From positions 1 through 52,013 of the forward strand of contig JAISZL010000050.1 in NCBI GenBank assembly GCA_031269245.1: a DNA stretch of 52,013 nt, given 5' to 3'. Shown one piece after another: positions 28,637 through 51,560 of the stretch. A program made the position numbers and the translations under genes. The first letter of the stretch is position 1; each line of letters begins with the position of its first letter. Below the pieces are notes generated by a model that made no database searches, was not told where the DNA came from, and saw only the letters and a list, made by a program, of their open reading frames with translations. The DNA is from Synergistaceae bacterium. GTDB taxonomy: Bacteria > Synergistota > Synergistia > Synergistales > Synergistaceae.

Positions 28637-28860
28637 ATAACCGCTGATCCTCTTTCATTATTTTTGTTTGAATTATATTATCAAATATATGGTATCATTT
28701 ATAATGGAATGGAGCAACAGCGCCATGCGTGTCCGCGTACCGGCGGGCCGATGTGTTTTCGCGGGACGCGCGTTTGCCCCTTCAGGCGGGTTCAAGACAA
28801 GCCGAAATATGTATTATAATCATAATCAATTGCGCCATTCGATTGGAGGTTGTAACAGTT

Positions 28861-31710
28861 ATGTCCGATTCTCTATTCCAAATATCCGGCATCAGCAGCG
28901 GGATACCGTGGGACGAAATGATAACGAAGACGATAGAGGCCGCCAGCAAGCCTAAGACTCAGTGGCAGAACAGCATAGACACGCTCGAGGTAAAAAAGAC
29001 GCTCTATCAGCAGCTGCAGAGCAAACTGAACAGCCTGCGCACCAAGATGACCAGCCTCAGGCTCCCGGACGCCTATAAGAAAAAGACGGCCGAGTTCACG
29101 GTGTTCAGCCCCGCGGGCGCGACCGCCGAGAGCATCGTGTCCGCCACCGTGGCGGCGAACGCCGAATTTACCTCGTGGGACATCGACGTCAAATCGCTGG
29201 CCCGCTCCCAGCGCCACGTGTCGACGCGCTTCGACAGCCGCACGGAGTCCCTGGGCATATCCGGTTCTTTCAGGATCCACATGGGATCGAGCTACGCTGA
29301 GATAACGGTCGGCACGGACGACACACTCCTTACGATCAACGAAAAAATAGCGAATGCCGCCGACCAGCACGGAAACAAGCTGAACGTGAGCGCCAAGCTG
29401 CTCGACAACCGGCTCGTCATCGAGAGCCTCGTCTCGGGCACGAACAACACCGGCGCCAAGCTCGGCGAGAAGATGACGATGGTTGGGGATGCGGGCAAGG
29501 TCGCCGTCGATCCTAACGACCTCTCCAAGGGCTATAATTACGAAATGTACCTGCCGCGATCGACGGTCTGGGACGAGACCAACAAAAAATATGTCTACCC
29601 CAGCGAGTACCCCAAGCAGATACTGGAGTTGGTGTACGAGACGAAAAACGTAGACGGCAGCTCGTATTATTACCAGTACAAGGCGGGGACCGACTTCGAC
29701 TATGATCCCGCCAACGGCAAGATAACATGGCTCAAGGACGGGCAGCGGCCGCCCGCGGGCGCGGAGGTCAACGCGATATACAGGCGCGACGACCTGAGGA
29801 TCACGCGCAACGAGGCATACGTCTTTCCGGACATGTCCACGGATCCAACTAAGGATTTGATTCCCCTCACCTCAGCCGGCGAGTTTTTCGACGCCGGCCT
29901 GGGATTCTCGATAATAGCCGGCGGAACGGAGTACGTCGAGGGAGCCGACTTCAACATCGTTAATGTCCTTGACACCTCATCCGCGGTCGTCGGTCAAGCC
30001 ATAGAGTGGTCAGCCTCAGTCACACGTCCGGCTAATGGCTCCTCTTATTTCCTGCAAGCCGGGACGAACGTGAACTACAGCACGAACGAGAGCGTGTTCT
30101 ACATGGAGCCATCCGACGGCATATACGACAGCGACTCCGTGCTGGCCCAGCTCGGTTTCATAACCCCCGGCAACGCGAATGACGATTGGACGTTCACCGA
30201 TGGGAGCTTCCGCGAAGCCACGGACGCCGTATTCTCCGTGGACGGGGTCGAGATGACGAGGTCGAGCAACACGATAAGCGACATCATAGCGGACGTCACC
30301 TTCGAGCTGAAGGGATCGGGGAGCGTGCGGCTGAACGTCACGCAGGACGTAACGGACACCATAGCGGCCCTGGAGTCGTTCGTCGAGGAGTACAACGCCG
30401 TTATGGAGTGGATAAACTACTACATGAGCCAGAAGGAGGATGCCGCTAACCCGGTGGACGAGGAGGACTTTCTCTCCTCCATCCTCTCCGATAGCAAGGG
30501 CAGTACGGTCTTCGGGGTGCTCCACGGCGACCAGTTGCTCTCCAGCATAAAGAACCAGCTTCGCACGAAACTGTCGTCCCCGCTGGCGATGATCTCGGGG
30601 TCAGTGGCGTCGAGAAGGGTCCAGCACCCCTCCGAGGCGCTCAACGTCCAGGGGTCGTTCTACCTCTACATAGGGGGCAAGGCGACCAGGATAGACGTGG
30701 CGAAGTCGGACTCGCTGGAGGATATAAAGGAAAAGCTCGATCTCTCCACAAACATCTTCTCGCCCAGCGACTCGTCGACGCCCTCCGGGACGAGCATGGG
30801 GCTCAAGGTCGCGATCAATGACGGGCAGCTCATCATCGGCGGGTCCGGGAACGTGTCGTTCAGCGCGAGTAACCAGGCGACCTTCGACACGAACAACGGC
30901 ATGATAAAGAGGGAGGGCGGGCAAAACTACGACCTCCTCCCCTTCGTGCCGGTCTCCCAGTCCCCTATAAGCGGCAAACTGACGATATACACCGGCGCGT
31001 ATCAAACCGACTCGAGCGGCAACGTGATCCAGGAGCCCACGATATACGAGGAGGGACGGGATTACAGGATCGTCACGGAGACGAACTCGAACGGCGTCAT
31101 GCAGAGCAGGGTCGAGTGGCTGTCGGGGGGGAAGAGCCCCACCGCGGGCAAAAGCTACAGCTATTCGTACTCGTACATGGCGGACGCGGTCATGATCTCG
31201 GAGATTCAGGGGTCCGGCGGCATCGGCAATAACAGTTATGGAGTCTCGTGGCTCGACTTCACGGCCGACTCCGGCAAGGCGATGATGGCTAACTTCGGCT
31301 TCACGACGGAGGCCGCCGAGTACGGCAAGAGCGGCTACCTCGAGTTCGACTCCGAGAAATTTTTCTCCAAGGTCCAGGAGGATTCGGGCATAGTGTCGAA
31401 CGTGATGCTGACCTTCATGCGCGACCTCGACTCGTACATCGGCAACCTGGTCGACAGCTCTCAGATAGTGGTGGGCGGCCAGATCGTGACTAAAGGACGC
31501 ATCGCCGCGGCGCTCAACTCCATCGACACGGAGCAGTCGACGCTGAACGAGAGGATAGCGAAGCTGGAGAAGGACCTGGAGACGAAACAGACCGCGATGT
31601 ACAAGCAGTACTCCGACATGGAGGTCGCCATCCAGAAGCTCAACGCTCAGATGTCGGCCGTGAGCAACTTCATGTCCAGCATGAGCTCATCATCCAGCTC
31701 GAGCGCTTAA
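28861..31710 (+). CDS. fliD: Flagellar hook-associated protein 2 (filament cap), enlarged
   Basis: 949 residues, about twice the usual FliD. The N-terminus ISGISSGIPWDEMITKTIEAA and the C-terminal helix (STLNERIAKLEKDLETKQ, then YSDMEVAIQKLNAQMS, ending in a Ser run) are the family's conserved ends that form the coiled coil of the cap. The centre is expanded by an internal duplication: a GSF.I..G motif near residues 131 and 593, each followed by a segment of the type YEEGRDYRI..WLSGGKSPTAG near 253-300 and 705-760. It is secreted through the flagellar export system and caps the filament. The chosen ATG has GGAGG 11 bases upstream; the frame is open further but lacks support. No other flagellar gene lies in the window. 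Confidence 0.9.
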   Translation: MSDSLFQISGISSGIPWDEMITKTIEAASKPKTQWQNSIDTLEVKKTLYQQLQSKLNSLRTKMTSLRLPDAYKKKTAEFTVFSPAGATAESIVSATVAANAEFTSWDIDVKSLARSQRHVSTRFDSRTESLGISGSFRIHMGSSYAEITVGTDDTLLTINEKIANAADQHGNKLNVSAKLLDNRLVIESLVSGTNNTGAKLGEKMTMVGDAGKVAVDPNDLSKGYNYEMYLPRSTVWDETNKKYVYPSEYPKQILELVYETKNVDGSSYYYQYKAGTDFDYDPANGKITWLKDGQRPPAGAEVNAIYRRDDLRITRNEAYVFPDMSTDPTKDLIPLTSAGEFFDAGLGFSIIAGGTEYVEGADFNIVNVLDTSSAVVGQAIEWSASVTRPANGSSYFLQAGTNVNYSTNESVFYMEPSDGIYDSDSVLAQLGFITPGNANDDWTFTDGSFREATDAVFSVDGVEMTRSSNTISDIIADVTFELKGSGSVRLNVTQDVTDTIAALESFVEEYNAVMEWINYYMSQKEDAANPVDEEDFLSSILSDSKGSTVFGVLHGDQLLSSIKNQLRTKLSSPLAMISGSVASRRVQHPSEALNVQGSFYLYIGGKATRIDVAKSDSLEDIKEKLDLSTNIFSPSDSSTPSGTSMGLKVAINDGQLIIGGSGNVSFSASNQATFDTNNGMIKREGGQNYDLLPFVPVSQSPISGKLTIYTGAYQTDSSGNVIQEPTIYEEGRDYRIVTETNSNGVMQSRVEWLSGGKSPTAGKSYSYSYSYMADAVMISEIQGSGGIGNNSYGVSWLDFTADSGKAMMANFGFTTEAAEYGKSGYLEFDSEKFFSKVQEDSGIVSNVMLTFMRDLDSYIGNLVDSSQIVVGGQIVTKGRIAAALNSIDTEQSTLNERIAKLEKDLETKQTAMYKQYSDMEVAIQKLNAQMSAVSNFMSSMSSSSSSSA

Positions 31711-49387: not shown

Positions 49388-50236
49388 CTATTCGACCGCC
49401 AGCAGCACCTGCATGTCGCCTTTCCCCGTGTGGAGATGGAACCCCTCCATCCCCCACCCCTCGCGGAGGTTCGCGGTCAGCGTCGGGGGAGTGATGTCGC
49501 ACGTCCTGCCGTCACCCGACATCATGACGGTGGATTTTCCCCCTATGATGTTGGACGTCTCGGCCATGGCGGAGCGCGCGATCTCATCCAGCTCGTCGAT
49601 ATCACGCGCTACGAGCGACTTTATTATCGCGCGCGCGAAGTCGGCCGAGTAGGCGAACACAGCCTTGCCGGCCACGTCGCCGGTCAGTCCTATCTCGAAC
49701 GTTATGTCGCCCTTGAAGTTCATCTTGGGGGGCATCGTTCTCGTGATTTCACCCCGGCTCAGCCCCAGCATGGTCATGATGACGTTGGCCGCGCTGTCGG
49801 AGAAGCTATCGAGGCAGGTCAGCAGGGACTCGCTGCCGCGCGAGGGGTTTTTGCCAACTATCTTCTGATCCGTATCGGCGACGTGGTAGTTCAGCCACGC
49901 GACCAGCGAGCCCGAGAACGCTTTCACGACCTTCATGTCGTATTCCGAGTCGATCATTTTTTTCGCGAAGTTGCCGACCGTTATTATGAACCTCTTGTGC
50001 TGCAACTTGTGGGCCTCGATGTCCTTGTAGCCGATCGACTCCTGATACCCCTCCTCGAACTGGAAGTGCTTGACCGTGTAGTCGTACAGGAAACTCACCG
50101 CGTCGGCGCACTTTTTTTTGTAGTCGGCGTGCTCGCAGTCGTCGATCACGGCTAGCAGGCCGTCGACCATTTCAAAAAGCTGCTGGTGCTGCCTGTCTAT
50201 CGTATCGACCCCCAGCCGGTACTCCTCTTTCCACAT
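49388..50236 (-). CDS. Bacteriohemerythrin-CheX fusion protein
   Basis: About 282 residues. Residues 1-130 are a bacteriohemerythrin four-helix bundle with every di-iron ligand: His17, His57 and Glu61 (HFQFE), His76 and His80 (HKLQH), His118 and Asp123 (HVADTD). It should bind oxygen. Residues about 135-282 are a CheX-like phosphatase domain: FSDSAANVIMTMLGL as first helix and MAETSNIIGGKS with the catalytic ExxN. CheX removes phosphate from CheY-P. The fusion suggests oxygen-dependent control of swimming. The ATG at 50236 is chosen because GAGGGAGG lies seven bases before it; the frame is open for 20 more codons. Confidence 0.88.
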   Translation of the reverse strand: MWKEEYRLGVDTIDRQHQQLFEMVDGLLAVIDDCEHADYKKKCADAVSFLYDYTVKHFQFEEGYQESIGYKDIEAHKLQHKRFIITVGNFAKKMIDSEYDMKVVKAFSGSLVAWLNYHVADTDQKIVGKNPSRGSESLLTCLDSFSDSAANVIMTMLGLSRGEITRTMPPKMNFKGDITFEIGLTGDVAGKAVFAYSADFARAIIKSLVARDIDELDEIARSAMAETSNIIGGKSTVMMSGDGRTCDITPPTLTANLREGWGMEGFHLHTGKGDMQVLLAVE

Positions 50237-50402
50237 AAGACGGCCTCCCTCGCGAACGCTGGAAAATATTTGTTTGCCGCATAATATCCACAACATTGTT
50301 ATTTTATAGATATATTGGTATTTTACAATATCGGCAATCTCATGAACAGCCCCGCTATGGAAAATTTCCGCGGCGCCGCGAAAAGCTCAGGTCAAGGAGG
50401 TG

Positions 50403-51560
50403 TCATCCTTCAAGGAGGGTTCTCTGCAGCGCCGCCAGCCCGACGCCAGGCTCTATCTTGTGGCCGCATCGTATGGCTGCCCGCTCTATGGCCGCTACGG
50501 CCGATACCAGTATGTTCGGTTCGATGTTGCCCATGTGCCCCACTCGGAACCCCTTGCCCGCGAAGTCCCCGAAGCAGCCGGCTATGTGAGCGCCCTCGTC
50601 GTACACCGCGCCGCGGAAGGCCGCGTCGTCGATGCCGGAGCCGTCAGGATACAGCCCGACCGTGACGGTCGGGGACGCCAGTTCAGAGGCGCAGCAGGGG
50701 GCGAAACCCATCGCGGACAGGGAGCCGCGTATGGCTTTCGCGTAGTGCCTGTGCCTTTTGAAGCGATTCTCCAACCCCTCCTCCTTAATTATCCGCACCG
50801 ACTCCGAGAGCGCCCAAATCAGGTTGACGGCGGGAGTTCCCCAGTACTTCACCGTGTCCTTCATGACCGGTATCCACTTCTCGAAATCGACGTAGGAGGC
50901 GTTGAGCGGCGGCATACCACGGCGCTTTTCGATCGCGCGCCGCCCAGCCCACAGGATCCCCAGGCCCGGCGATATCCCGAAGCACTTCTGGGAGCACGTG
51001 AGCATCACGTCAACGCCCCAGTCCATATAAAATTCGACGCCGCCCATTGACGCGACGCCGTCGACCGCGATGAGGACCTCCGGGTGTTTATCGCGCATCA
51101 TTCGCGTCAGGTCCCGCAGTGGAAACTCGACCCCCGTGGAGGTCTCGACGTGGGTGAGGACCAGCACGTCGAATCTGTCCTCGCTTAGGCGCCTGTCGAT
51201 CTCGTCCGCCGTGACGGTCTCTCCCCACTTCGCCCTGATGGTATCCATTTTGAACCCTCTGCGCGAGCAGATGTCTATATACCTGTCGCCGAAGTACCCG
51301 TTGGAGCAGACGAGAACCCTGTCCTCGTCGGAGGCGATGTTCACTATCCCCATCTCCATAGCCATGGTTCCCGAGCCCGCCACTACGAACGCTATACCGT
51401 CGCACCTCCAAAGGGTCGTGAGGTCGTCGATGAGCGCCTTGAACTCCGCCACGAGGCGGGGGTCGTGGAACGACACCGTCTCCCGCCCCATCGCGTCCTG
51501 GATGGAACGGGCGACGGGCGTTGGGCCCGGCACCATAACGTATGGATTCCTTTTGTACAT
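50403..51560 (-). CDS. Class V aminotransferase (alanine-glyoxylate / serine-pyruvate aminotransferase-like)
   Basis: 385 residues, PLP-dependent fold type I. The N-terminus NPYVMVPGPTPVARSIQDAMG is that of the alanine-glyoxylate family. FVVAGSGTMAMEMGIVN forms part of the cofactor site, AVDGVASMGGVEFYMDWGVDV contains the Asp that binds the PLP nitrogen, and TCSQKCFGISPGLG contains the Schiff-base Lys. It may use serine, alanine or phosphonate-type amines; the exact substrate cannot be told. ATG behind GGAGG at ten bases. About 165 bases of A+T-rich sequence separate it from the hemerythrin-CheX gene. Confidence 0.92.
   Translation of the reverse strand: MYKRNPYVMVPGPTPVARSIQDAMGRETVSFHDPRLVAEFKALIDDLTTLWRCDGIAFVVAGSGTMAMEMGIVNIASDEDRVLVCSNGYFGDRYIDICSRRGFKMDTIRAKWGETVTADEIDRRLSEDRFDVLVLTHVETSTGVEFPLRDLTRMMRDKHPEVLIAVDGVASMGGVEFYMDWGVDVMLTCSQKCFGISPGLGILWAGRRAIEKRRGMPPLNASYVDFEKWIPVMKDTVKYWGTPAVNLIWALSESVRIIKEEGLENRFKRHRHYAKAIRGSLSAMGFAPCCASELASPTVTVGLYPDGSGIDDAAFRGAVYDEGAHIAGCFGDFAGKGFRVGHMGNIEPNILVSAVAAIERAAIRCGHKIEPGVGLAALQRTLLEG

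Follow-up and report, generated by a model that had tools for sequence, protein, structure and literature searches.

Accounts of aerotaxis usually start from the receptors, and a gene in the window (the whole stretch of 52,013 nucleotides analysed here, from a Synergistaceae bacterium) raises the question of whether oxygen or redox state could also enter chemotaxis through a phosphatase. A sensor carried by such an enzyme would, if real, let the signal enter elsewhere in the pathway and act with other dynamics. Anaerobes may have to avoid oxygen in gut gradients. The idea is directly testable, as the predicted protein has solved relatives and simple assays exist for both of its domains.

A bacteriohemerythrin joined to a CheX domain

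The gene, hereafter HHE-CheX, runs from an ATG at 50236 to a stop codon at 49388-49390 and encodes a soluble protein (Table 1). Its start is invariant (M-W-K) across 28 homologues, and the ATG is preceded by GGGAGG, within 5'-GCGAGGGAGGCCGTCTTATG, which is a good ribosome-binding sequence. A longer frame from the ATG at 50296 would add 20 residues; conservation of the start codon at 50236 ruled it out. A phage or viral origin was likewise dropped, as a scan of viral contigs gave no relative. A sequence-only reading had assigned the product to a bacteriohemerythrin fused to CheX, and both domains score above curated cut-offs. Judged on these profiles, the domain and motif content is far beyond chance.

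Table 1. Coordinates of the HHE-CheX gene, its parts and the convergent chemoreceptor gene
Feature	Position	Strand	Basis or remark
HHE-CheX gene	49388..50236	-	ORF, 282 aa; Pfam and NCBIfam profiles
Bacteriohemerythrin domain, residues 1-128	49853..50236	-	PF01814, TIGR02481, NF033749; DcrH-Hr 2awc profile match; VIA Z
Linker, residues 129-138	49823..49852	-	Low model confidence, variable
CheX domain, residues 139-282	49391..49822	-	PF13690; 1xko and 3hzh_B profile matches; VIA Z
Catalytic core E226-T-S-N229	49550..49561	-	Aligned with T. maritima ELGN and B. burgdorferi EVGN
Chemoreceptor (dCache_1-HAMP-MCPsignal), 679 aa	47269..49308	+	Convergent neighbour; Pfam domains

The N-terminal half was matched by the Pfam hemerythrin profile PF01814 at 46.8 bits (cut-off 25.3) and by two NCBIfam profiles, the bacteriohemerythrin NF033749 at 89.7 bits (cut-off 84) and TIGR02481 at 99.4 bits (cut-off 51.75, E=1.5e-28). 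It satisfies the ligand pattern H...HxxxE...HxxxH...HxxxxD (five histidines, one glutamate and one aspartate), and the seven di-iron ligands claimed earlier were all found, namely H17, H57, E61, H76, H80, H118 and D123. When a profile of the 28 homologues was compared with PDB chains, DcrH-Hr (2awc) was matched at E=2.1e-20. The AlphaFold model places a four-helix bundle here (helices 11-32, 39-67, 73-96 and 101-125), which aligned with DcrH-Hr over 123 residues at 28% identity (VIA-align Z 17.3-17.5, rmsd 2.0-2.3). This half is expected to be a non-heme di-iron sensor of oxygen or redox state.

Meanwhile, the C-terminal half reached 39 bits against the Pfam CheX profile PF13690 (cut-off 27) and carries the complete catalytic signature S222-x3-E226-x2-N229-x21-P251. 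The ETSN motif reported earlier is confirmed. E226 and N229 align with the E-N pairs of the T. maritima (ELGN) and B. burgdorferi (EVGN) CheX proteins, and in the model both residues sit on a long helix (218-239). The 28-homologue profile matched T. maritima CheX (1xko) at E=6.5e-21 and 3hzh_B, the CheX chain of the B. burgdorferi CheX-CheY crystal structure, at E=4.5e-13. The sequence-only reading had staked its assignment on a CheX-like fold in this half, and this is what the VIA-align comparison returned, with Z 18.3 to V. vulnificus CheX 6vpw (rmsd 2.2, 141 residues aligned) and Z 17.0 to 3hzh_B. The threshold of the Thermotoga-type CheX equivalog NF041094 was missed (59.7 bits vs 280); by its score, this half is in the same superfamily and outside that equivalog.

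The model as a whole has a mean pLDDT of 78 and a pTM of 0.67, and its VIA-align matches split by half into residues 1-130 (DcrH-Hr) and 137-282 (CheX). Sequence profiles, PDB profiles and the predicted structure thus agree on both halves. Between them, pLDDT falls below 50 at residues 128-135, and identity of the linker to four orthologues (50-80%) is lower than that of both domains in most comparisons. With a linker this variable and this poorly determined in the model, no path for rigid coupling of the domains can be seen; rigid helical coupling was considered and found unsupported by the model.

Distribution and conservation

Both domains occur together in 17 of the 188 Synergistota genomes, in copies that share 47-83% identity with that of the window; two of them end at contig ends. 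The named records show the carriers to be Synergistaceae MAGs, whose habitat, to go by the style of their sample codes, may be the termite gut. The same architecture was found at 33-40% identity in gut Clostridia (Flavonifractor, Anaerotruncus, Butyricicoccus, Agathobaculum and Lachnospiraceae), and more examples turned up when two Clostridia groups were surveyed at order level. In a tree with a provisional root at its midpoint, all Synergistota copies fall into a single clade (support 0.93) surrounded by sequences from Clostridia, a pattern compatible with one transfer.

Six of the iron ligands, E226 and N229 are invariant in the core alignment of 28 rows; D123 has one exception, a D to G change in L055. 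Pairwise dN/dS against four relatives was 0.05-0.17 for the hemerythrin domain and 0.11-0.22 for CheX, and purifying selection acts on both.

In the copy of Flavonifractor An306 (L065) the frame ends after 44 residues while similarity runs to residue 250, and the gene appears broken. Another genome holds, about 4 kb downstream of its first copy, a second and divergent HHE-CheX-like ORF (L046:8422-9207) in which similarity crosses stop codons. A tandem pair of HHE-CheX genes is present in one Clostridia genome (L099).

Unfused gene pairs and divergent relatives

The two domains were also found as separate neighbouring genes, in the same order, at six Clostridia loci from five lineages (L092, L093, L114, L115, L116 and L118, of which L114 and L115 are near-identical). 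The start of cheX overlaps the end of hhe or lies within about 10 bases of it, all pairs keep the HHEHHHD ligands and the motif E-[VI]-A-N-I-I-S-G, and they group as a clade of their own (support 0.997). Domains, ligands, ExxN and order are those of the fusion, with two polypeptides in place of one, and these pairs are likely its counterpart. Such adjacent or overlapping genes are the strongest support, independent of the fusion itself, for a functional link between hemerythrin and CheX.

Other relatives depart further from the window copy. Two proteins that start with PAS-like and GGDEF regions (L082:988-2817 and L083) continue into hemerythrin and CheX with the catalytic asparagine replaced by E or D, and few or no chemotaxis genes were found in their genomes. 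In four more (L084:1367-2926, L085:959-2500, L112 and L113), the hemerythrin is followed by a weakly CheX-like region lacking ExxN and then by a receiver domain; this CheX likeness comes from our own profile, Pfam making no CheX call in any of the four and, for L084 and L085, calling just hemerythrin and receiver. About ten Clostridia fusions with no extra domain keep the seven ligands and lack ExxN (L086, L089, L100 and L105-L111). The output of relatives that lack ExxN or carry GGDEF or receiver domains therefore need not be CheY-P hydrolysis, and the hemerythrin site is retained more strictly than the phosphatase site, which would suit a sensor whose output changes. Separately, an open frame at L091:2-1972 resembles a hybrid histidine kinase followed by a receiver and a C-terminal hemerythrin, its kinase and receiver being judged by eye.

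Chemotaxis genes of the carriers

The genome that holds the window encodes FliG, three CheW-domain proteins and nine chemoreceptors. It also encodes a separate stand-alone CheX with an ELTN motif, so basal removal of CheY-P need not depend on the fusion, which, as far as gene content indicates, presumably serves as an extra, conditional phosphatase beside it. CheW-domain proteins were found in all 17 Synergistota carriers vs 127 of the 171 other genomes (Fisher p=0.014, uncorrected for relatedness), and FliG in 16 of the 17, the exception being a genome that is 63% complete.

Among Clostridia carriers, 11 of 15 had CheW domains. Searches for CheW, FliG, chemoreceptors and FlhA found none of these in G196, where both domains are intact, in G192, where ExxN is kept and the seventh ligand lost, or in G201, whose HHE-CheX copy ends at a contig end. 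In G189, also with both domains intact, the same search found FliG and no CheW, chemoreceptor or FlhA. Incomplete assemblies could be part of the cause in these four genomes.

Relation to known systems

The CheX phosphatases of T. maritima (1xko/1squ) and B. burgdorferi (3hzh) share with HHE-CheX the whole fold (Z about 16-17, 22% identity), the single E-x2-N site and the spacing S-x3-E-x2-N-x21-P. HHE-CheX differs from them by its added N-terminal hemerythrin, and its host has a stand-alone CheX as well. On the other side, the hemerythrin domain of the Desulfovibrio vulgaris chemoreceptor DcrH is the closest solved one, with all ligands in common and the same presumed oxygen or redox input to chemotaxis. 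However, DcrH is a membrane chemoreceptor that acts via CheA and carries its hemerythrin at the C-terminus, whereas in HHE-CheX the hemerythrin is N-terminal and the output is a soluble predicted phosphatase, which would act at the opposite end of the pathway. Bhr-DGC of Vibrio cholerae and Bhr-HD-GYP of Ferrovum likewise place a hemerythrin on a soluble signalling enzyme (GGDEF or HD-GYP), for which redox-gated catalysis is the working model (PMC9388753). Their output is synthesis or breakdown of c-di-GMP, while that predicted for HHE-CheX is hydrolysis of CheY-P. As in all three of these proteins, hemerythrin and signalling output domain share one chain.

CheX, bacteriohemerythrins and hemerythrin-enzyme fusions are thus known, and the fusion with CheX appears to be a new variant. 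We recognised no paper describing a CheX-hemerythrin fusion or gene pair in the searched open-access literature, which was covered mostly by titles and abstracts. The single co-mention of CheX and hemerythrin in this set occurs where the genes of a magnetotactic genome are counted. A term search of two hemerythrin overviews returned neither CheX nor CheC, and the same held for a 2026 review, which names receptors and DcrH (PMC13401364). The architecture may already be listed in domain databases.

Proposed mechanism and alternatives

We propose that HHE-CheX is a soluble CheY-P phosphatase gated by the redox state of its di-iron site or by oxygen, a reading to which we give about an even chance. 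The site would be diferrous in the anoxic cytoplasm, and oxygen or another oxidant reaching it would oxidise the iron. The state of the iron would then alter the attached CheX, most likely so that dephosphorylation of CheY-P by E226 and N229 goes up or down. The level of CheY-P, and hence flagellar switching, would shift alongside the chemoreceptor array and in parallel to CheA. We infer by analogy that CheY-P is the substrate and redox state the signal; we likewise infer, and only infer, that the two domains communicate and that motility responds to oxygen.

Parts of the sequence-only reading had to be modified. It had suggested oxygen binding as the direct trigger, whereas characterised hemerythrin-enzyme fusions follow the redox state of the iron instead: catalysis proceeds in the diferrous form and stops or slows greatly in the diferric one, and bound azide does not switch these enzymes on (PMC9388753). 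Since the known fusions respond in this way, a redox-gated CheX with oxygen as the usual oxidant is the likeliest model. It had also proposed that the protein could bypass a membrane receptor. A phosphatase trims only the CheY-P that CheA has made, so HHE-CheX would modulate the receptor path and not replace it. Moreover, the sensor itself would lie outside the reach of receptor methylation; the effect may therefore be a set-point on switching (a kinesis or a control of gain) and not adapting aerotaxis in the classical sense. The notion of an aerotaxis switch survives as a plausible functional idea, to which the adjacent hhe-cheX pairs lend support. Aerotaxis need not be the only output, given that at least two carriers with both domains intact (G189 and G196) showed no chemoreceptor or CheW and that several relatives lack ExxN. 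More tentatively, and with the odds slightly against it, we suggest that gut anaerobes may possess a whole family of such soluble phosphatases under redox control, built as fusions or operon pairs, through which oxygen or redox state would set flagellar switching at the step of CheY-P removal, in parallel to the receptor array and with no receptor methylation affecting the sensor.

The protein might be a redox or oxygen regulator whose CheX half targets some response regulator different from the motor CheY, or simply binds receivers without catalysis, perhaps in c-di-GMP signalling or a further two-component pathway. The GGDEF fusions (L082, L083), the receiver fusions (L084, L085, L112, L113), the carriers with no detectable chemotaxis genes and the loss of ExxN in several relatives all point this way. 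We nevertheless consider it unlikely: ExxN does not vary among the window copy and the 28 core homologues, CheW-domain proteins accompany every Synergistota copy, and the proteins with a GGDEF or receiver domain, which no longer have ExxN, are divergent.

Azide binds di-iron sites, and nitric oxide or peroxide can react with them. With such chemistry, and a sequence that cannot tell the ligand, the signal might be nitric oxide, peroxide or iron availability in place of oxygen, with the same CheX output. Azide forms are known for DcrH and Bhr-DGC, but among characterised relatives no reaction is better documented than autoxidation driven by oxygen (both PMC9388753), and we give this possibility little credence. 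Equally improbable in our view is a CheX that works on CheY-P beside a hemerythrin with no regulatory role, one that buffers oxygen or iron or stabilises the protein. The flexible, variable linker would suit such an arrangement, these genomes often encode bacteriohemerythrins of a single domain, and oxygen-protective ones occur elsewhere (work on C. jejuni cited in PMC9665402). Yet the recurrence of the fusion, together with the separate adjacent gene pairs, suggests a specific pairing, and the characterised hemerythrin-enzyme fusions are regulated (PMC9388753). Redox-gated removal of CheY-P remains our preferred reading.

Gene neighbourhood

The chemoreceptor gene next to HHE-CheX is indeed convergent, as the sequence-only reading stated, with 79 bases between the two stop codons. 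Clustering of ORFs placed its cluster at only two of 30 homologous loci (L060 and L061) and at no other Synergistota locus. We thus rejected it as a conserved partner: the adjacency looks incidental, and the receptor is probably outside the HHE-CheX system. At the Synergistota loci, where flanking ORFs were clustered and some of them annotated, no chemotaxis gene was seen to recur as a neighbour.

Two other genes of the window deserve mention. A class V aminotransferase at 50403-51560 (-) is nearest to BhcA, an aspartate-glyoxylate aminotransferase, but at 241 bits falls far short of the cut-off of 650. A very long FliD of 993 aa is encoded at 28729-31710 (+), with FliD_N at residues 57-161 and FliD_C from residue 497.
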